Assembly: GCF_020618415.1 (NCBI RefSeq)
Contig: NZ_CP085344.1
Span: forward strand, 310,001-374,000
Source of the DNA: Cupriavidus sp. MP-37
GTDB taxonomy: Bacteria; Pseudomonadota; Gammaproteobacteria; Burkholderiales; Burkholderiaceae
DNA: 64,000 nucleotides
Direction of reading: 5' to 3'
Positions 29,507 through 38,206 of the stretch are shown here, piece after piece. The position numbers and the translations under genes were made by a program. Positions within the stretch are counted from its first letter, which is position 1. Every line of letters starts with the position of its first letter. Under the pieces are notes generated by a model that did no database searches, was not told where the DNA came from, and saw only the letters and a program-made list of their open reading frames with translations.

Positions 29507-30442
29507 TTATCCGCCGAATAGCGTGGCATTCTCTCTGGCGGTATCCTCGGCGGCAATCTCCAATAGCCATGCGCGGAAACAATGCAGGGCCGGATGATCA
29601 CGGCGCTCCTTCGGCGCGCACAGGAAATAGCCGCGCTGCAGCGTAATCGGCAGGTCAAACGGTGCCGCCACGCGTCCTGCCGCAATTTCCTCGCGCACCA
29701 GGCAGCGCTGCAGCACCGCCACGCCCATGTCGGCGCGCACCGCCTGGATCAGGATCGAGACCTGGTCGAACGCTGTGGATAACCTGGGCGCAGCGTTGGG
29801 TACGCCGGCAGCCTGCAGCCAGTTTTGCCAGTTCGCCGGCGCGGTGGTGTGGTAGAGCAAAGGCTCGTCCAGCAGCTCGGCGGGAGACTGCCAGCGGCCT
29901 GCGTCGCGCCGCGCGCGGGCGCGGTCCGGGTGGCAGACCGGCACCATTTCCCGGCCGACCACATAGTCGGCTTGCAGGCCGGGCCATTTGCCGGCTTCGC
30001 CGGCCAGGATGGCGGCGTCGGGGGAGGGGCCGGACAAGTCTTCGTCACGCTGGTAGGGAACGAAGTCGAGCCGGATTTCCGGGTGGCGGCGGTGGAAGTC
30101 CGGCAGGCGCGGCACCAGCCAGACGCTGGCTAGGGTGGGCACTACGGACAGGGTCAGATGGTGCCGGCGGTCGCCGGCGCGCAAGGCGGCGCTGGCGTGT
30201 TCGATCGCGGCGAGCGGTTCGGCCACGGCATCGAGCAATCGGCGGCCGGCATCGGTCAGCCCGAGGCGGTGGGCATTACGCTGCAGCAGCGGCTGGCCGA
30301 AATGCGCTTCCAGCCTTGCGATGGCGCGGCTGACCGCACCCTGCGTCACGCACAGTTCTTCCGCCGCCCGCGTAAAGCTGCCCAGCCGCGCCGCGGTGGC
30401 AAAGGCGTGCAACTCGGACATCGAAGGGGAATGCAGCCGCAT
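29507..30442 (-). CDS. LysR-family regulator divergent from a Bug-family binding protein
   Basis: A 311-residue LysR protein of the GcvA-like subgroup. The HTH is in LHAFATAARLGSFTRAAEELCVTQGAVSRAIARLEAHFGQPLLQRN (residues about 11-55), followed by an effector domain beginning LTLSVVPTLASVWLVPRLPDFHRRHPEIRLDF. The ATG at 30442 gives a short leader before the HTH; ATG at 30421 is an alternative. It is divergent from the TctC-like gene with 156 bp between, so it probably controls that gene and the coupled N-formylglutamate amidohydrolase. A perfect DnaA-box-like 9-mer within the gene (29774-29782) is probably chance. Confidence 0.85.
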   Translation of the reverse strand: MRLHSPSMSELHAFATAARLGSFTRAAEELCVTQGAVSRAIARLEAHFGQPLLQRNAHRLGLTDAGRRLLDAVAEPLAAIEHASAALRAGDRRHHLTLSVVPTLASVWLVPRLPDFHRRHPEIRLDFVPYQRDEDLSGPSPDAAILAGEAGKWPGLQADYVVGREMVPVCHPDRARARRDAGRWQSPAELLDEPLLYHTTAPANWQNWLQAAGVPNAAPRLSTAFDQVSILIQAVRADMGVAVLQRCLVREEIAAGRVAAPFDLPITLQRGYFLCAPKERRDHPALHCFRAWLLEIAAEDTARENATLFGG

Positions 30443-30510
30443 GGAGGACTGGGGGAGGGCGCGAAGGAGGTCATCGCCCGCGGGCTCGGCGCAAGGATGA
30501 TCTTTGGTAA

Positions 30511-30537
30511 TGCAAAGGTGCAATATAGTCGTTTGCG
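30511..30537. promoter_or_regulatory. Candidate LysR site in the divergent promoter
   Basis: Inverted hexamers TGCAAA (30511-30516) and TTTGCG (30532-30537) flank a TATAGT-like -10 (30524-30529) in a locally AT-richer patch between the LysR and TctC-like genes. The symmetry is imperfect, so this is a weak prediction. Confidence 0.4.
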
Positions 30538-30598
30538 CACAGCCGGTAAACGGCTGACACTCGGCCGGTTCATGCACAACACCAACAGGAGAAACCCC

Positions 30599-31594
30599 AT
30601 GATCCGAGCCCGGATGTCCCGCCGCCAGCTGCTGCTGACCGGCACCGCCGCCACCGCCACGCTGGTCTTTGCCGGCAGCGCCCTGGCGCAGGCCAACTAC
30701 CCGACCCGCCCGATCCGGCTGATCGTGCCGTTTGCCGCGGGCGGCTCCACCGACCTGTCGGCGCGCCTGGTGGCGGAGTTTGCCGGCCGCGAGCTGGGTC
30801 AGTCGATCGTGGTGGAAAACAAGGGCGGCGCCGGCGGCTCGCTGGGCATGGAGCAGGTCGCCAATGCCGCGCCGGATGGCTACACCATCGGCATGGCCAC
30901 GGTCAGCACGCATGGCTCCAATCCGGCCGTGTACCCCAAGCTCAAGTACGACCCGATCAAGGACTTTGCCCCGGTCACCAACGTGGTGGCGATCCCCAGC
31001 GTGTTCGCCGTGCACCCGAGCGTGCCGGCCAAGACCATGCAAGAGTTCATCGCGCTCGCCAGGGCCAACCCCGGCAAGTACAGCTTCGCCTCGCCGGGTG
31101 CCGGCTCGCTGGGCCACGTCAACATCGAGAACTTCATGATGCTGGCCAAGATCGACCTGCTGCACGTGCCTTACAAGGGCGCCGGGCTGGCGCTGAACGA
31201 CGCCGTCGCAGGGCAGGTGAACGCGATCACCGACAACCTGTCGTCGACGCTGCCGCACGTGAAGGCCGGCCGGCTGCGCGCGCTGGCAGTGCTGGGCGCG
31301 GCGCGCTCCGCGCAGCTGCCCAACGTGCCGACCTACGCCGAACTGGGCTTCAAGGACATGGGCGAGGGCGGCTGGTTCGGCATTGTCGCGCCGGCCAATA
31401 CGCCGCCCGCCATCGTCGCCAGGCTGAACCAGGCGATCCACAAGGCCATGCAGAACCCCGAGTTCAAGCGCAAGGTGGACGAGTCCGGCGGCACCCTGGT
31501 GCCGACCACGCCGGAACAGTTCAAGGCACAGATCCAGCAGGCCATGGCGCGCTATGCCCGCGTCGCCAAGGCCGCCGAGATCAAGCTGGACTAA
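30599..31594 (+). CDS. Bug-family (TctC) extracytoplasmic solute-binding protein with Tat-like signal
   Basis: A 331-residue periplasmic binding protein. The N-terminus has a twin-arginine motif, SRRQLLL (residues 7-13), then a hydrophobic stretch and cleavage after ALA (about 31). The mature part starts YPTRPIRLIVPFAAGGSTDLSAR, the signature of Bug proteins, with KGGAGGSLGMEQVANAAPDGYT and PYKGAGLALNDAVAGQVNAI forming the carboxylate-binding loops. Bug proteins bind dicarboxylates, nicotinate, pyroglutamate, amino-acid derivatives and similar ligands. No TctAB membrane genes are adjacent. AGGAG precedes the ATG. The stop is 2 bp before the amidohydrolase start, so a formylated or acylated amino acid ligand is plausible. 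Confidence 0.87.
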   Translation: MIRARMSRRQLLLTGTAATATLVFAGSALAQANYPTRPIRLIVPFAAGGSTDLSARLVAEFAGRELGQSIVVENKGGAGGSLGMEQVANAAPDGYTIGMATVSTHGSNPAVYPKLKYDPIKDFAPVTNVVAIPSVFAVHPSVPAKTMQEFIALARANPGKYSFASPGAGSLGHVNIENFMMLAKIDLLHVPYKGAGLALNDAVAGQVNAITDNLSSTLPHVKAGRLRALAVLGAARSAQLPNVPTYAELGFKDMGEGGWFGIVAPANTPPAIVARLNQAIHKAMQNPEFKRKVDESGGTLVPTTPEQFKAQIQQAMARYARVAKAAEIKLD

Positions 31595-31596
31595 GC

Positions 31597-32469
31597 ATGG
31601 CGGAAGCAACCAACCACGCGGCCGCGCTGCCGCCGGTGATCGTGCGCTTGTCGGAAGGGGAGGCCCTGCCGCTGGTGTGCGATTCGCCGCATAGCGGTAC
31701 CGCTTACCCGGCGGACTTTGGCGCCGCGGTGCCCGCCGCGCGCCTGCGCGGCGGCGAGGATACGCATGTGGACGCGCTGTGGCAGGCCGTGCCCGCGGCT
31801 GGCGGCACGCTGCTGGCGGCGACCTTCCCGCGCGCCTATATCGATCCGAACCGGATGGTCGATGACATCGACCCGGCCCAGCTCGACGGTGCATGGCCGA
31901 CGGCGCTGGCCCCGGGGCCGAAGACGCAACTGGGCTACGGGCTGATCTGGAGCCGGATCGACGCGGCCACGCCGATCTACGACCGTCGGCTGTCGGTCGC
32001 GGAAGTGCAGGCCCGCATCGAGCGCTACTATCGGCCGTACCATGCGGCGCTGGCCGAGGCGGTGGAGGGCGCTTACGCGCGCTTTGGCGCGCTCTGGCAC
32101 CTGAACCTGCACTCGATGCCGAACAATGCCTACGAGCGCCTGAAGATCGCCAGCCCGCATCCGCTGGCGGACTTTGTGCTGGGCGATCGCGATGGCACGA
32201 CCTGCGAGCCGGGGCTCGTGGATCTGGTCGAGCGGGAGCTGCGCGGCATGGGATACACCGTCGCGCGCAACGACCCGTACAAGGGCGTGCAGTTGATCGC
32301 GCAGATCGGGCGGCCGGCGGAGCGGCGCAACAGCCTGCAGATCGAGATCCGGCGGCCGCTGTACATGGATGAGGTGACGCGCGAGCGCAATGCCGGCTTT
32401 GCTTCGCTGCAGCGCGACCTGGGCAAGCTGACGGAGCAAGTGGCGGCCTATATCCGTTCACAGCTGTGA
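31597..32469 (+). CDS. N-formylglutamate amidohydrolase family protein (HutG-type)
   Basis: A 290-residue enzyme of the FGase family. Conserved blocks are LVCDSPHSGTAYPADF (residues about 27-42, with metal-site His), GGEDTHVDALW, FPRAYIDPNRMVDDID, LHLNLHSMPNN-type HLNLHSMPNN (about 168) and NSLQIEIRRPLYMDE. It would release formate from N-formyl-L-glutamate, the last step of one histidine degradation route. No other hut gene is nearby, and coupling to a Bug binding protein suggests scavenging of an N-formyl amino acid instead. The ATG is 2 bp after the previous stop. The first parS site and a terminator follow its stop codon. Confidence 0.85.
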   Translation: MAEATNHAAALPPVIVRLSEGEALPLVCDSPHSGTAYPADFGAAVPAARLRGGEDTHVDALWQAVPAAGGTLLAATFPRAYIDPNRMVDDIDPAQLDGAWPTALAPGPKTQLGYGLIWSRIDAATPIYDRRLSVAEVQARIERYYRPYHAALAEAVEGAYARFGALWHLNLHSMPNNAYERLKIASPHPLADFVLGDRDGTTCEPGLVDLVERELRGMGYTVARNDPYKGVQLIAQIGRPAERRNSLQIEIRRPLYMDEVTRERNAGFASLQRDLGKLTEQVAAYIRSQL

Positions 32470-32475
32470 GGCGCT

Positions 32476-32491
32476 TGTTCCACGTGAAACA
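32476..32491. promoter_or_regulatory. parS site 1 (one mismatch)
   Basis: TGTTCCACGTGAAACA matches the universal parS palindrome TGTTTCACGTGAAACA except for C at position 5. It lies 7 bp after the amidohydrolase stop. ParB (gene at 36238) should load here. Confidence 0.9.
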
Positions 32492-32495
32492 TATG

Positions 32496-32520
32496 GCCGG
32501 GCCTAGTGCCCGGCTTTTTT
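32496..32520 (+). terminator. Rho-independent terminator between parS sites 1 and 2
   Basis: Perfect 7-bp stem GCCGGGC / GCCCGGC with loop CTAGT and six T. The last T is also the first base of parS site 2. It ends the TctC-amidohydrolase transcript. Confidence 0.92.
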
Positions 32521-32535
32521 GTTTCACGTGAAACA
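32520..32535. promoter_or_regulatory. parS site 2 (perfect)
   Basis: Exact TGTTTCACGTGAAACA palindrome, the ParB-binding centromere element, abutting the terminator upstream of mnmG. Confidence 0.96.
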
Positions 32536-32577
32536 CGACGTCGCTTTCAAGCGACTAGCGGCGTACCGTAGGCGCCA

Positions 32578-32593
32578 TGTTTCACGTGAAACA
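32578..32593. promoter_or_regulatory. parS site 3 (perfect)
   Basis: Exact TGTTTCACGTGAAACA, 42 bp after site 2 and 35 bp upstream of a TATAAT -10 (32629-32634) that probably belongs to the mnmG promoter. ParB spreading here could influence mnmG transcription. Confidence 0.96.
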
Positions 32594-32628
32594 TGGTGTC
32601 GGCCGGAAAGCGGAAACACGAATGCCGC

Positions 32629-32634
32629 TATAAT
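32629..32634 (+). promoter_or_regulatory. Probable -10 element of the mnmG promoter
   Basis: Perfect TATAAT, 47 bp upstream of the mnmG ATG. No good -35 is present at 16-18 bp, and parS site 3 lies just upstream. Confidence 0.55.
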
Positions 32635-32680
32635 TTCGCATTCCCGTATTTTCCCGCCAGCCTCCCGGAGGAGGTGTCCC

Positions 32681-34639
32681 ATGCTTTACCCGAAAGAATT
32701 CGATGTCATCGTCGTCGGCGGTGGCCATGCCGGCACTGAAGCCGCCCTTGCTGCGGCCCGCATGGGCTGCCAGACGCTGCTGCTGACCCATAACATCGAG
32801 ACGCTTGGGCAGATGAGCTGCAATCCGTCGATCGGCGGCATCGGCAAGGGGCACCTGGTCAAGGAGGTGGATGCCATGGGCGGCGCCATGGCCGCGGCCA
32901 CGGACGAGGCCGGCATCCAGTTCCGCATCCTGAATTCCAGCAAGGGGCCGGCCGTACGTGCTACGCGCGCCCAGGCGGATCGGGTCTTGTACCGCAAGGC
33001 GATCCGCACCCGGCTGGAGAACCAGCCGAACCTGATGCTGTTCCAGCAAGCCGTCGACGACCTGCTGGTGGAGGGCGACCGCGTCGTTGGCGCCATGACG
33101 CAGGTCGGCATCGCCTTCCGTGCGCGCGCCGTGGTGCTGACCGCCGGCACCTTCCTGGACGGCAAGATCCACGTGGGGCTGGATAACTACACTGGCGGGC
33201 GCGCGGGCGACCCTGCCGCGGTGTCGCTATCGGCACGCCTGAAGGACCTGAAGCTGCCGCAGGGCCGCCTGAAGACGGGTACGCCGCCGCGCATTGACGG
33301 TCGCACCATCGATTTTTCGGTGATGGAAGAACAGCCGGGCGACCTTGATCCCGTGCCGGTCTTCTCCTTCCTGGGCCGGCCCGAACAGCACCCGCAGCAA
33401 CTGCCGTGCTGGATCACCCATACCAACAGCCGTACCCACGACATCATCCGCGGCGGACTGGACCGCTCGCCGATGTACACCGGCGTGATCGAAGGGGTAG
33501 GGCCGCGTTACTGCCCCAGCATCGAGGACAAGATCCATCGCTTTGCCAGCAAGGAAAGCCATCAGATCTTCCTGGAACCGGAAGGCCTGACCACCAATGA
33601 GTTCTATCCCAACGGGATCTCGACCAGCCTGCCGTTCGACGTGCAGCTGGAACTGGTGCACTCGATCCGCGGCCTGGAGAACGCCCATATCCTGCGTCCG
33701 GGCTATGCGATCGAATACGACTACTTCGACCCCCGCGGCCTGAAGGCGTCCTTGGAGAGCAAGGCGATCCGGGGGCTGTTCTTCGCCGGCCAGATCAATG
33801 GCACGACCGGGTACGAAGAAGCCGCGGCGCAGGGCCTGCTGGCCGGTATCAATGCCGGTTGCTACGTGCGCGAACGCGATCCATGGACACCGCGCCGTGA
33901 CCAGGCTTACCTGGGCGTACTGGTCGACGACCTGATCACGCGCGGCGTCACCGAGCCGTATCGCATGTTCACCAGCCGCGCGGAATTCCGTCTGAGCCTG
34001 CGGGAAGACAACGCCGACATGCGGCTGACCGAGGTCGGGCGCGAGCTGGGTGTGGTCGATGATGCGCGCTGGGACGCGTTCAACCGCAAGCGTGATGCTG
34101 TTTCACGTGAAACAGAACGCCTCAAGAGCACATGGGTGAACCCGGCGATGCTGCCGGCCGAAGAGGCGGTCCCACTGCTGGGCAAGCCGATCGAACGCGA
34201 GTACAGCCTGGCCGACCTGCTGCGCCGCCCGGAAGTCAGCTACGAAGCGCTGATGGCACTGCAGGGCGGTCGCCATGCTCCTGACGCACCGCTGGACGCG
34301 GAGCCGATGCTGGCGGAACAGATCCGCGAGCAGATCGAGATCGGCATCAAGTACCACGGCTATATCGCCCGCCAGGCTGCCGAAGTCGACAAGCTGGAAG
34401 CCAACGAATCGACGCGCCTGCCGGAAGGGCTGGATTACACCGAAGTACGCGGGCTCGGTTTCGAGGTCAGCCAGAAGCTGAACCAGCATCGCCCGGAGAC
34501 ACTGGGCCAGGCTTCGCGCATCTCCGGCGTGACGCCGGCGGCGGTGTCGCTGCTGCTGGTACACCTGAAGAAGAAGGGACTGGGCCGCGGCCGTGCCGAC
34601 GCCGGCGCATCGTCCGGCAACGGTGAAGAGGCTGCCTGA
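32681..34639 (+). CDS. mnmG: tRNA uridine 5-carboxymethylaminomethyl modification enzyme, FAD subunit
   Basis: A 652-residue GidA/MnmG protein. The FAD dinucleotide motif is [17 protein letters not shown] (residues about 12-28). The active-site stretch [22 protein letters not shown] (about 47-68) is followed by [15 protein letters not shown] and the [13 protein letters not shown] region. The helical C-terminal domain ends in [41 protein letters not shown]. With MnmE it installs the carboxymethylaminomethyl group at wobble U34 of several tRNAs. The ATG follows GGAGGAGG. A perfect parS sits inside its coding sequence (34099). Followed by rsmG and parAB, as in many proteobacterial origin regions. 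Confidence 0.96.
34099..34114. promoter_or_regulatory. parS site 4 (perfect), inside the mnmG coding sequence
   Basis: Exact TGTTTCACGTGAAACA within mnmG. In frame it contributes the residues Ala-Val-Ser-Arg-Glu-Thr around codons 473-478. It is about 1.5 kb from site 3 and 1.3 kb upstream of parA. Confidence 0.95.
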
Positions 34640-35362
34640 GTGCCCGCTCCGCGACACACCATGACCGACGACGCCACGCAGCGTCGTCGCCTTGAAGCGG
34701 GCCTGGCCGAGATCGGGCTGGCCTTGCCGCCAGCCCGGCTCGACACGCTGTTCGCCTACCTGGCGCTGCTGCGCAAATGGAATGGCGTCTACAACCTGAC
34801 CGCCATCCGCCATCCCGACGAGATGCTTACGCATCACCTGCTGGATTCGCTCGCCGCGGTGCCGGCGCTGGCCGAAGCCGCCCATGCCGCGGAAGTCGAG
34901 GCGCCGGCGCGGGGCAGGGTGCTCGATGTGGGCTCGGGTGGCGGCATGCCAGGCCTGCCGCTGGCCATCGCCTGTCCGGAGGTGTCGGTGCTGATGGTCG
35001 ACATCGTGCAGAAGAAAACAGCGTTCCTGACGCAGTGCCGCGCCCAGCTGGGCTTGTCCAATGCCGCCGCGCATTGGGGGCCGGTGGAGCAACTGGACGA
35101 TGCCGACGGCTTTGCCGTGATCACCTCGCGCGCGTTTGCCGAACTGACGGATTTCGTCAATCTGTCGGGCCAGTTGCTCGCGGCCGGCGGCAAGCTGATC
35201 GCGATGAAGGGCGTGTATCCGCAGGCCGAGCTGGACCGCATGGAAGCCGCCGGACTGATGGCGCAATGGCAGGTCGACGCCGTGCCGCGGCTGACCGTGC
35301 CCGGGCTGGAGGCGGAGCGCCACCTGGTGGTGCTGTCGCGCCGCGCGGGCGCCCCCGCATGA
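34640..35362 (+). CDS. rsmG: 16S rRNA (guanine527-N7)-methyltransferase
   Basis: A 240-residue GidB/RsmG protein. The SAM-binding motif is VLDVGSGGGMPGLPLAIACP (about residues 94-113), preceded by LLRKWNGVYNLTAIRHPDEMLTHHLLDSLA, a family hallmark. SRAFAELTDFVNL and GGKLIAMKG complete the fold. It methylates G527 of 16S rRNA; loss gives low-level streptomycin resistance. A GTG directly after the mnmG stop has a purine-rich site upstream; an ATG seven codons later (34661) is the alternative start. It lies between mnmG and parA in the conserved origin-region operon. Confidence 0.93.
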   Translation: MPAPRHTMTDDATQRRRLEAGLAEIGLALPPARLDTLFAYLALLRKWNGVYNLTAIRHPDEMLTHHLLDSLAAVPALAEAAHAAEVEAPARGRVLDVGSGGGMPGLPLAIACPEVSVLMVDIVQKKTAFLTQCRAQLGLSNAAAHWGPVEQLDDADGFAVITSRAFAELTDFVNLSGQLLAAGGKLIAMKGVYPQAELDRMEAAGLMAQWQVDAVPRLTVPGLEAERHLVVLSRRAGAPA

Positions 35363-35447
35363 CCTACGCCGCGGCGCCGCGCGAGCGCGCCGCGAACTGC
35401 CAGCCGCGTGCTGGCCGGATGAATTGAAGCAGGAGCCGCAGGAGCTT

Positions 35448-36221
35448 ATGGCCAAGGTATTCGTGATCGCAAACCAGAAGGGCGGAGTCGGCAAGACCAC
35501 CACCACTGTGAACCTTGCCGCGGGCCTGGCGGCACAGGGCCAGCGCGTGCTGCTGGTCGACCTGGACCCGCAGGGCAACGCCTCGATGGGCTCCGGCATC
35601 GACAAGCAGGCGCTGGAAACCAGCGTGTACCAGGTGCTGGTGGGCCTGGCCGGCATCCCCCAGGCGCGCCAGCGCTCCGAAACCGGCAAGTACGACGTGC
35701 TGCCGGCCAACCGCGAACTGGCCGGCGCGGAAGTGGAACTGGTCGAGCTGGACCAGCGCGAGCGCCGGCTGCGCCAGGCCATCGCGGAGGTCGACGGCGA
35801 CTATGACTTCGTGCTGATCGACTGCCCGCCGTCGCTGTCGCTGCTGACGCTGAACGGGCTGTGCGCGGCGCACGGCGTGATCGTGCCGATGCAGTGCGAG
35901 TACTTTGCGCTGGAAGGTCTGTCGGACCTGGTCAACACCATCAAGCAGGTACACGCCAACCTGAACCGCGACCTGCAGGTGATCGGCCTGCTGCGCGTGA
36001 TGTTCGATCCGCGCGTGACGCTGCAGCAGCAGGTGTCGGCGCAACTGGAATCGCACTTCGGTGAAAAGGTCTTCAAGACACTGATCCCGCGCAATGTGCG
36101 GCTGGCCGAGGCACCGTCCTATGGCATGCCGGGCGTGGCGTTCGATCCATCATCGAAGGGTGCCAAGGCGTACCTGGACTTCGGCGCCGAGATGATCGCG
36201 CGGGTCCGGCAGCTGGGCTGA
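35448..36221 (+). CDS. parA: Chromosome partitioning ATPase ParA (Soj)
   Basis: A 257-residue chromosomal-type (short, no HTH domain) ParA. The deviant Walker A is KGGVGKTTTTVNLA (residues 11-24) with the signature lysine, then VLLVDLDPQGNASMGSG (A' motif) and VLIDCPPSLSLLTLNGL (Walker B). It binds DNA non-specifically as an ATP dimer and moves or positions the ParB-parS complexes located just upstream. ATG at 35448 is preceded by AGGAG; an upstream in-frame ATG at 35424 lacks homology. It precedes parB by 16 bp. Confidence 0.95.
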   Translation: MAKVFVIANQKGGVGKTTTTVNLAAGLAAQGQRVLLVDLDPQGNASMGSGIDKQALETSVYQVLVGLAGIPQARQRSETGKYDVLPANRELAGAEVELVELDQRERRLRQAIAEVDGDYDFVLIDCPPSLSLLTLNGLCAAHGVIVPMQCEYFALEGLSDLVNTIKQVHANLNRDLQVIGLLRVMFDPRVTLQQQVSAQLESHFGEKVFKTLIPRNVRLAEAPSYGMPGVAFDPSSKGAKAYLDFGAEMIARVRQLG

Positions 36222-36237
36222 AGGAGAGGGCAAGAGC

Positions 36238-37140
36238 ATGAGCACTGCAAAGAAGAAGGGCCTGGGCCGCGGCCTGGAAGCGCTGTTGGGCGGGCCCGCC
36301 GAAATCGTCGAATCGGTCAAGCAGGAGGGGGCGCCCACGGTGCTGAACCTGAACCAGCTGCAGCCGGGCAAGTACCAGCCGCGCACCCGCATGGACGAGG
36401 GCGCGCTGCAGGAACTGGCGGCGAGCATCCGCGCCCAGGGCCTGATGCAGCCGATCCTGGTGCGGCGCGTGGCCGAGCCCGACCACTACGAGATCATTGC
36501 CGGCGAACGCCGCTTCCGCGCTTCCAAACTGGCCGGGCTGGACAAGGTGCCGGTGCTGGTCAAGGACGTGGCCGACGAAGCCGCGGCGGCGATGGCGCTG
36601 ATCGAGAACATCCAGCGTGAAGACCTGAATCCGCTGGAAGAGGCGCAAGGCATCATGCGGCTGATCCGCGAGTTCAGTTTCACGCACGAGCAGGCGGCCG
36701 AGTCGGTCGGCCGCTCGCGCAGCGCGGTGTCCAACCTGCTGCGCCTGCTGAACCTGGCCGCGCCGGTGCAGACCATGCTGATGGCTGGCGACCTCGACAT
36801 GGGCCACGCGCGCGCGCTGCTGGCCGTGGACGGCGCCAACCAGATCACGCTGGCCAACCAGATCGTCAACAAGCGGCTGTCGGTGCGCGAGACCGAGAAG
36901 CTGGTGGCGTCGACGCTGAAGCCGTTCGACCTGAAGTCGCTCAAGCAGAAGGGCGGCAACAATGTGCGCGACGTGGCGCGGCTGGAAGAGGAGTTGTCGG
37001 ACGCGCTCGGGCTGGCGGTGCAGATCAAGCTGTCGGCACGCGGCAAGGGCCAGCTGACGATCCACTTCAGCAACAACGATGCGCTCGAAGGGGTGCTGGT
37101 GCGCCTGCGCGAATCGCGCGAAGGGCAGCAGGCTGCCTGA
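36238..37140 (+). CDS. parB: Chromosome partitioning CTPase/DNA clamp ParB (Spo0J)
   Basis: A 300-residue ParB. The N-terminal peptide [15 protein letters not shown] is the ParA-stimulating arginine-containing leader. The CTP-binding domain has QYQPRTRMDEG-type LQPGKYQPRTRMDEG, ELAASIRAQGLMQPILVR and GERRFRASKLAGL (about residues 87-99), followed by ENIQREDLNPLEEAQG. The parS-reading HTH is in FTHEQAAESVGRSRSAVSNLLRLLNL (about 146-171). The C-terminal dimerisation domain closes the protein. It loads at the four parS sites at 32476-34114 and slides as a CTP-dependent clamp. The ATG follows AAGGAGAGGG. Confidence 0.95.
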   Translation: MSTAKKKGLGRGLEALLGGPAEIVESVKQEGAPTVLNLNQLQPGKYQPRTRMDEGALQELAASIRAQGLMQPILVRRVAEPDHYEIIAGERRFRASKLAGLDKVPVLVKDVADEAAAAMALIENIQREDLNPLEEAQGIMRLIREFSFTHEQAAESVGRSRSAVSNLLRLLNLAAPVQTMLMAGDLDMGHARALLAVDGANQITLANQIVNKRLSVRETEKLVASTLKPFDLKSLKQKGGNNVRDVARLEEELSDALGLAVQIKLSARGKGQLTIHFSNNDALEGVLVRLRESREGQQAA

Positions 37141-37457
37141 TTTACTGCGCGATTAACGGCCATTGCTGCCGCGACTGTTGCGCGCACGCAGCACTGGCCG
37201 GGTCGATCCCCGGTATACCTTGTGCCTGACCGGTAATCCCCCATCATGCGCAGGGTTCGCTGCGCAATCCAATTACGTCAAACATCATTGCCGCGCAATT
37301 TTCGCGCAGCCATCATGCAATCGTGATGGCAACCGTTGTGCGCAACGCACTGCAAGGTAAATGTAAGCAGATTGACGCGAATCAGTAGTTCCCCTTAAAA
37401 TCGTGCGGTTTGAATTCTGGTCGGGCCGAAAAGTTCCGGCCCGGATAAGGCAGGCAG
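37141..37457. other. Intergenic region between parB and the ATP synthase operon
   Basis: A 317-bp spacer without a gene. It becomes markedly less GC-rich toward its end and contains the probable atp promoter at 37371. Several GCGCAA/TTGCGC words occur around 37265-37350, giving possible short hairpins. Confidence 0.6.
37371..37401 (+). promoter_or_regulatory. Probable sigma-70 promoter of the ATP synthase operon
   Basis: A -35 TTGACG (37371-37376) and a -10 TAAAAT (37396-37401) with 19-bp spacing; a shifted reading TTAAAA gives 18 bp. It ends 56 bp before the atpI start in a low-GC patch. Confidence 0.6.
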
Positions 37458-37964
37458 GTGGTGGTTCGAGACCGTCAGCAACGAAGCGCCGGGTCCCGTC
37501 AGGAAGATGACTGGGACGACTGGAAAGAAGGCGCGGAGCGTGAGGAAGAAGCTGTCGATCCGCTGTCGCATGCCGAAGCGGTGACGCTGTTTGGCGAGCG
37601 CGCGCTGCGTCCTTCGCGCATGACCCCGGGCAAGGTTGTCCTGGCGCAGGTGGCGGTTTCCCTGCTGTCGGCACTGTGCTGGGCGCTGTTTGCGAAAGAG
37701 CCGGGGCCATATGGATGGTCGGCGCTGTTCGGCGGCATGGTGTGCTTCGTGCCGAGCGGGTTCTTCGCCTTCCGCCTGTGGCTGGCACGCGACCGGGCTT
37801 CGGTGGGCGGGCTGGTGCTGGGCGAGGCGATCAAGGTCTTTGCCACGGTGGCGCTGCTGGTGCTGGTGGTGGTGCTGTACCGGGATCTGCGTTGGGTGCC
37901 GATGCTGGTCACGTTCCTGCTGGCGCTGAAGACATACTGGGTGGTGGCCCTGGCCTTGCGCTAG
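37458..37964 (+). CDS. atpI: ATP synthase subunit I (AtpI)
   Basis: A 168-residue membrane protein. A hydrophilic, acidic N-terminus (about 55 residues, with DDWDDWKEGAEREEE) precedes four hydrophobic segments from VVLAQVAVSLLSALCWALF onward. It ends with the conserved LALKTYWVVAL. AtpI assists assembly of the c-ring and is poorly conserved in sequence; the position before atpB makes the call safe. The start is a GTG, with a second GTG one codon later. It is first in the atp operon, with 242 bp before atpB. Confidence 0.85.
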   Translation: MVVRDRQQRSAGSRQEDDWDDWKEGAEREEEAVDPLSHAEAVTLFGERALRPSRMTPGKVVLAQVAVSLLSALCWALFAKEPGPYGWSALFGGMVCFVPSGFFAFRLWLARDRASVGGLVLGEAIKVFATVALLVLVVVLYRDLRWVPMLVTFLLALKTYWVVALALR

Positions 37965-38206
37965 GGCGGCTGCCTGAAAACGGTGCTTGCTTTGCAAGTG
38001 GTGGCACCAAAACGGAATATCAAGAGTTTCCGTGACGGCTGCGGCGGGTTTCATGGCGCTGACACCGGACACGGCCAAGGTTGGAAACCCGCTTGCATCG
38101 CGGTGACCGGCGAATCCGCCGCAGGCAATGCAAGACGCGTACCGGGTGCTGCAAGACTGTGCGGCGCGCGGCCCGAAGATTTCGCAATATACCGTTCGAT
38201 TCGACA

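Follow-up and report, generated by a model that had tools for sequence, protein, structure and literature searches.

Gene neighbourhood and parS sites

The window, meaning the whole 64,000-nucleotide stretch of Cupriavidus sp. MP-37 DNA that was analysed, carries a string of four genes on its forward strand. The first, mnmG (gidA; 32681..34639, + strand), encodes a 652-residue enzyme of tRNA uridine-5-carboxymethylaminomethyl synthesis, which scores 903.5 bits against TIGR00136 (cut-off 524.85) and matches the Pfam families GIDA, GIDA_C_1st (residues 461-565) and SAM_GIDA_C. It is followed by rsmG (gidB; 34661..35362, + strand), a 16S rRNA methyltransferase gene matching TIGR00138 with a possible alternative GTG start upstream at 34640, and by parA (35448..36221, + strand), encoding a partition ATPase with the KGGVGKTT motif, for which the best ParA-type models score under their equivalog cut-offs. 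The last gene, parB (36238..37140, + strand), encodes the presumed parS-binding protein, matching TIGR00180 at 200.1 bits together with Pfam ParB_N, HTH_ParB and ParB_C. The closest named relatives among the matches listed belong to Cupriavidus, with MnmG identities of 95-96%, and the order mnmG-rsmG-parA-parB is kept in 47 of the 49 non-genus carriers with at least 3.2 kb of downstream sequence.

In ParABS systems, ParB dimers load at parS, form CTP-dependent sliding clamps and recruit SMC, and ParA moves the resulting complexes. A search of the whole window for the pattern TGTTTCACGTGAAACA, allowing up to three mismatches, returned four matches only. Those at 32520..32535, 32578..32593 and 34099..34114 have no mismatch and the one at 32476..32491 has a single mismatch, none of the four being assigned to a strand, so the original prediction of a four-site parS cluster with three perfect members is borne out; the cluster lies upstream of parAB, as it also stated, and rsmG, parA and parB follow mnmG on the same strand. 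All four carry the 16-bp palindrome TGTTNCACGTGAAACA of primary-chromosome parS, three perfectly and one as a tolerated variant, and a cognate parA and parB, the latter with an HTH domain, lie on the same replicon 1.3 kb downstream. Noc-binding sites (NBS) have a CCCGGG centre in place of CACGTG; CACGTG is the centre of all four sites, and the window ParB stays under the Noc model cut-off (228.2 vs 315 bits).

The 32476 site (TGTTCCACGTGAAACA) begins 7 bases past the stop of the upstream gene and departs from the palindrome solely by a T-to-C transition at position 5 (T5C), a variant that, according to the available text of PMC5450999, is a natural one among chromosomal parS sites and still interacts with ParB. 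T5C is frequent among intergenic sites of the genus, being present in 37 of 162 sites with at most two mismatches. The 32578 site stands 103 bases 5' of the mnmG start, and the 34099 site lies inside mnmG. Chance origin of the cluster is ruled out by shuffling and by genome-wide uniqueness: the expectation for TGTTTCACGTGAAACA sites per window is 0.08 (sd 0.27, maximum 1; 100 shuffles), none of the 100 shuffles contained four, and the pattern GTTNCACGTGNAAC occurs in the genome (6,114,217 bases, two contigs) only at these four places, its backwards control giving 0 matches in the same genome.

The cluster is located about 342 kb from dnaA, or about 9.5% of the 3,615,976-base replicon, the distance being measured to dnaA and not to a mapped origin; dnaA matches occur at both ends of this contig (C1, 3.62 Mb). 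A second ParB homologue is encoded on the other replicon (G000:C2:1662444-1662911, L257; 73.9 bits vs a cut-off of 58.45), and that replicon has no GTTNCACGTGNAAC place.

Several other elements lie near the upstream sites. The sequence TATAAT (32629..32634, + strand) is a probable -10 element of the mnmG promoter; 58 of 59 genus members have it at a distance of 50-56 bases 5' of the mnmG start, and the window copy stands 35 bases past a parS. A consensus scan of 32400-36300 found no full sigma-70 promoter. In several genus members, the inverted repeat ATGCCG ... CGGCAT flanks this TATAAT (32620-32643 in the window). A terminator-like stem (32495-32515) is followed by a T-run whose last T is the first base of the 32520 parS, and 32 of 59 genus members have a T-run no more than 3 bases away from an upstream parS core. 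A palindrome at about 32540-32555, between two of the sites, was discarded as an additional element, its pattern occurring in just 2 of 59 genus members. No Rfam family reached its gathering score in 30000-38000, which rules out a known RNA element there.

The site within mnmG

The 34099 site lies wholly within the intact mnmG open reading frame (32681-34639). Translation of that frame gives codons 473-478 (34097..34114, + strand) as GCT GTT TCA CGT GAA ACA, or AVSRET, the very peptide the original prediction had read there. Residues 474-478 fall in the C-terminal helical domain of MnmG, as judged from Pfam and from sequence alignment to the E. coli structure, and in E. coli MnmG the residues IERER are aligned against VSRET.

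The comparison covered 246 mnmG genes: 59 from the genus, 79 from the order, 28 from other members of the class and 80 named loci. The genus set has one gene from each of the 59 of 60 genomes with an mnmG match, the sixtieth genome being 54% complete. The order set comprises 79 of 244 matching non-genus genomes, mostly the better-scoring ones, the class set 28 of 137 further matches, and the named set 80 of at least 584 loci. Two duplicates (L115 and L144, the same places as L182 and L208) and the window itself (L001-L004, L085) were removed before counting, and the genus set leaves out minor fragments and a broken second copy in G038. That copy (C1:4135084-4137035) has two in-frame stops, the intact gene being at C1:19215, and the G038 genome holds four exact cores. 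In two further loci, L200 (G043) and L201 (G047), the mnmG match is in pieces across frames, a possible frameshift or assembly error, and the embedded core is exact in both.

Exact 14-base cores number 147 within the mnmG genes and are found in 126 of the 246, with 21 genes holding two, and all 147 are read in one frame. The second core, where present, lies in a variable linker of Comamonadaceae-type genes. At the embedded position, the exact core occurs in 59/59 genus genes, 14/79 order genes, 50/80 named loci and 0/28 class genes.

Synonymous constraint on the embedded codons

The codon comparison concerns genes that encode V-S-R-E at residues 474-477, a set chosen by peptide and not by codons. 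All 127 such genes among the 246 use GTT TCA CGT GAA: every one of the 59 genus members does so, and so does each of the 68 V-S-R-E genes outside the genus. Named loci and genome rows may share species, an overlap addressed by thinning to less than 82% nucleotide identity, after which 37 of 37 V-S-R-E genes still have these codons. Synonymous changes were counted by parsimony on trees built without the embedded-site part of the gene. Among the 68 genes outside the genus, codons 474-477 are the only columns with zero synonymous changes of 346 eligible, against a mean of 18.94. Within the genus, columns 474-478 likewise have zero changes, with a mean of 9.26 over 522 eligible columns; 26 of those 522 are at zero, which makes a lone frozen column no rarity in this set, and the only zero windows of four columns, of 346, begin at 474 and 475. 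The frozen codons are also uncommon ones, since elsewhere in the genus mnmG genes GTT accounts for 123/2273, TCA for 19/1768 and ACA for 60/2022 of the synonymous choices.

Constraint on synonymous positions, as expected of an intragenic parS, is thus present. The proposal that one set of bases is under constraint from both protein and centromere is supported by the absence of synonymous change at 474-477 across the 127 genes, and the alignment of related mnmG genes that was suggested as its check revealed no drift. As far as these alignments tell, the constraint reaches past the original guess, extending over Burkholderiaceae, Comamonadaceae and Sphaerotilaceae and shaping the peptide as well.

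Conservation of the peptide itself could be offered as the whole explanation, with MnmG requiring V-S-R-E-T and the palindrome merely following from codon bias in a conserved stretch of protein. In its favour, the 127 carriers all have the same peptide, which sits in a conserved domain. It is, however, variable in the other 119 of 246 genes, those without V-S-R-E, where residue 474 is I, V or L, 475 mostly A or E, 476 R, A, L, Q or others and 478 Q, L, T, R or others, residue 477 being E in 118 of 119; E. coli has IERER there. Moreover, the frozen codons are uncommon, while all other V, S, R and E columns outside the genus change. Conservation through the protein only is contradicted by these synonymous data and is rejected, being hardly credible at all.

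Comparison of carriers with the other genes gives the two largest drops in amino-acid entropy at residues 476 and 478. The third largest is at residue 469, outside the embedded site, which indicates that the relatedness of carriers is partly behind the amino-acid contrast; the synonymous test is free of this weakness. The embedded mark appears to set a few MnmG amino acids.

Base-by-base tolerance

Upstream sites reveal which positions of the palindrome may vary outside a reading frame. Across the 246 loci, 309 upstream sites with at most two mismatches carry those mismatches at positions 1 (44), 5 (78), 12 (63) and 16 (41), with one exception each at positions 2 and 10 and none elsewhere; the same search in a control stretch of mnmG found no sites. 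These variable positions agree with the surface plasmon resonance (SPR) data reported in the available part of PMC5450999 for ParBc1 of B. cenocepacia, the ParB of another species, which tolerates symmetric changes at 1/16 and the 5/12 transition. The SPR changes described there are mostly symmetric doubles, and some single-arm changes (T3, T4, T5A) bound in SPR and not in vivo (PMC5450999).

The embedded copies follow a different pattern. In the mnmG frame, T5C changes Ser to Pro and A12G changes Glu to Gly; neither occurs in any of the 127 embedded copies, and positions 2-13 are invariant in all of them. Position 1 is changed in 12 copies and position 16 in 11, each of them the third base of a codon; in four decayed copies (L068, L081, L119, L120) the changes are at 15, or at 14 and 15. 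Even the free ends favour the parS letters, with T at codon 473 in 115/127 genes and A in 114/123 Thr codons at 478. Since changes at 5 and 12 alter MnmG, ParB and the protein would each veto changes that the other permits.

Distribution and turnover

The embedded core is general in Burkholderiaceae proper, Comamonadaceae and Sphaerotilaceae; on the Oxalobacteraceae side and in most other families it is missing or has decayed. The embedded site is therefore dispensable within the order. On an mnmG tree (FastTree, 194 rows, 71 with the exact core, some nodes weak), the core changed state at least 8 times, gains and losses being pooled. Two isolated distant rows, L078 and L232, have an exact core. 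L226, reading GTT GCA CGT GAA ACA with Ala for Ser, is one step off and still matches GTTNCACGTGNAAC; it illustrates a possible route, whether of gain or of loss.

Within the genus, the best-kept intergenic site (-106..-101; 32578 in the window) has an exact core in 44/59 members, against 59/59 for the embedded site. In 6 of the 59 members the 300 bases upstream of mnmG contain no exact core, though the 1.5 kb upstream holds, in all 59, some site with one core mismatch or none. In the genomes compared, intergenic sites turn over more than the embedded site does.

All 17 named Comamonadaceae loci have an embedded core. None shows a site with one core mismatch or fewer in the 1.5 kb upstream, or any upstream site with up to two mismatches in the available stretch. 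Seven genomes of one GTDB family (f48) were scanned whole; in four of them (G107, G217, G275, G303) every GTTNCACGTGNAAC place is inside mnmG and rsmG, and the other three (G149, G186, G247) have further sites. A 1.2 Mb genome of the window's own family (G238) has a single GTTNCACGTGNAAC place, in mnmG.

Unlike rsmG of Comamonadaceae-type relatives, rsmG of the window is without a parS. The rsmG site of those loci (e.g. L036, L043, L208) is TGTTTCACGTGGAAC plus A or C and reads F-H-V-E, a peptide present in 37 of 235 rsmG genes, and its palindrome frame differs from the mnmG frame. T5C is synonymous and tolerated in this frame, and those four codons vary in no other way (TTT in 35 and TTC in 2 of the 37 genes). 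In two Oxalobacteraceae loci (L026, L027), a parS-like site spans the rsmG stop and the TGA of the palindrome ends the protein (...ERST*). Two other loci (L074, L084) have one-mismatch parS-like sites about 3.8-4.0 kb past the mnmG start, in long frames reading AVSRETL or AVPRETL.

Interpretation and alternative explanations

The four sites very probably constitute the parS centromere of the main chromosome, with the mnmG site held in place by ParB and the reading frame together. By analogy with ParABS systems in general, ParB dimers would load on the four sites and close into CTP-dependent clamps, which would slide over the adjoining mnmG-rsmG-parAB DNA, recruit SMC and be moved by ParA. The mnmG site would be an old element, kept at the homologous codon across much of Burkholderiales by two locks: ParB would reject changes to T4, A7, T10 and A13, the third bases of their codons, and the mnmG frame would turn the core changes that ParB accepts (T5C, A12G) into amino-acid changes, in addition to purging indels. 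Only bases 1 and 16, third codon positions tolerated by ParB, would be left free. Binding of ParB at 34099 is likely given the motif and the selection upon it, and participation of this site in segregation is likewise the probable consequence.

There are two further rival explanations. The palindrome in mnmG might be kept for a different nucleic-acid role, such as a rare-codon pause, an mRNA hairpin or the operator of another regulator, and the scarcity of TCA and GTT in these genes would suit a pause. The same 14-mer, however, also stands between genes beside parAB and, in variant form, within rsmG, where the frame is different; its variable positions track ParB tolerance, and the Rfam scan of 30000-38000 gave no family at its gathering score, which leaves such a role very improbable. 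More plausible, though still unlikely, is a true parS kept in mnmG for control of its own operon, where ParB, bound inside mnmG and also at the parS preceding the TATAAT, would be a roadblock or repressor of mnmG-rsmG-parAB and give feedback on ParA and ParB levels, and segregation would proceed via the intergenic sites. The site lies upstream of parAB in a same-strand gene string conserved in 47 of the 49 non-genus carriers, the TATAAT before mnmG stands close to a parS in the window, and P. aeruginosa ParB represses promoters near parS3 and parS4 according to the title of PMC5521831. What weighs against it is the complete lack of intergenic sites in several Comamonadaceae-type genomes, where segregation must depend on the coding sites if ParABS is functional. 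Action of ParB inside its own gene string is plausible as a further role of the centromeric site.

A broader form of the centromere reading, to which we give somewhat less than an even chance, sees a dual-coded centromere: an mnmG-interlocked parS across much of Burkholderiales, its peptide dictated by segregation, and a Comamonadaceae-type centromere that would have moved wholly into reading frames, with up to two sites in mnmG and, in a different frame, one in rsmG. A coding location would then act as a ratchet through which a site outlasts its intergenic counterparts, and ParB may thereby be able to throttle the operon that encodes it.

Relation to known systems

Chromosome 1 of B. cenocepacia has two parS sites, tGTTNCACGTGAAACa (PMC7022226, available text), and these share motif, taxonomic order and tolerance pattern with the window sites (PMC7022226, PMC5450999). 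The accessible portions of the two papers give no gene placement for them, in contrast to the mnmG site described here. Two Burkholderia loci (L008, L009) have two sites each with at most two mismatches in the available stretch, one upstream and one in mnmG, a pattern suggesting that one of the two known B. cenocepacia chromosome 1 sites is probably in mnmG.

Intragenic parS as such is already known. In P. aeruginosa, nine of ten predicted parS lie within coding sequences and were mutated without protein change, and the available part of that report states neither a homologous coding site across families nor shaping of a protein (PMC4368675). The sole chromosomal parS of Thermus thermophilus is within gidB (rsmG), directly upstream of parA (PMC4409726); it belongs to a distant phylum and to gidB, not mnmG, and codon-level conservation is undescribed in the accessible text of that source. 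A parS of B. cenocepacia chromosome 2 lies inside parB, where it can be hit by silent mutation (PMC4948915, in the part available); that site belongs to another replicon's system, has another motif and lies in a host gene outside the conserved housekeeping set. In the open-licence library searched, neither the mnmG site nor its cross-family conservation nor the interlock was found described, and Dubarry 2006, Livny 2007 and Passot 2012 may already place parS in gidA.

The locus offers a clean natural example of a DNA-segregation element that writes a portion of a protein, with two constraints that can be separated base by base against measured binding data. The available text of PMC7333895 lists how many parS sites there are and how they cluster among the open questions, and the persistence of centromere sites at their places becomes testable here. 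In these bacteria, the identity of MnmG residues 474-478 is probably informative about ParB and not about the enzyme.
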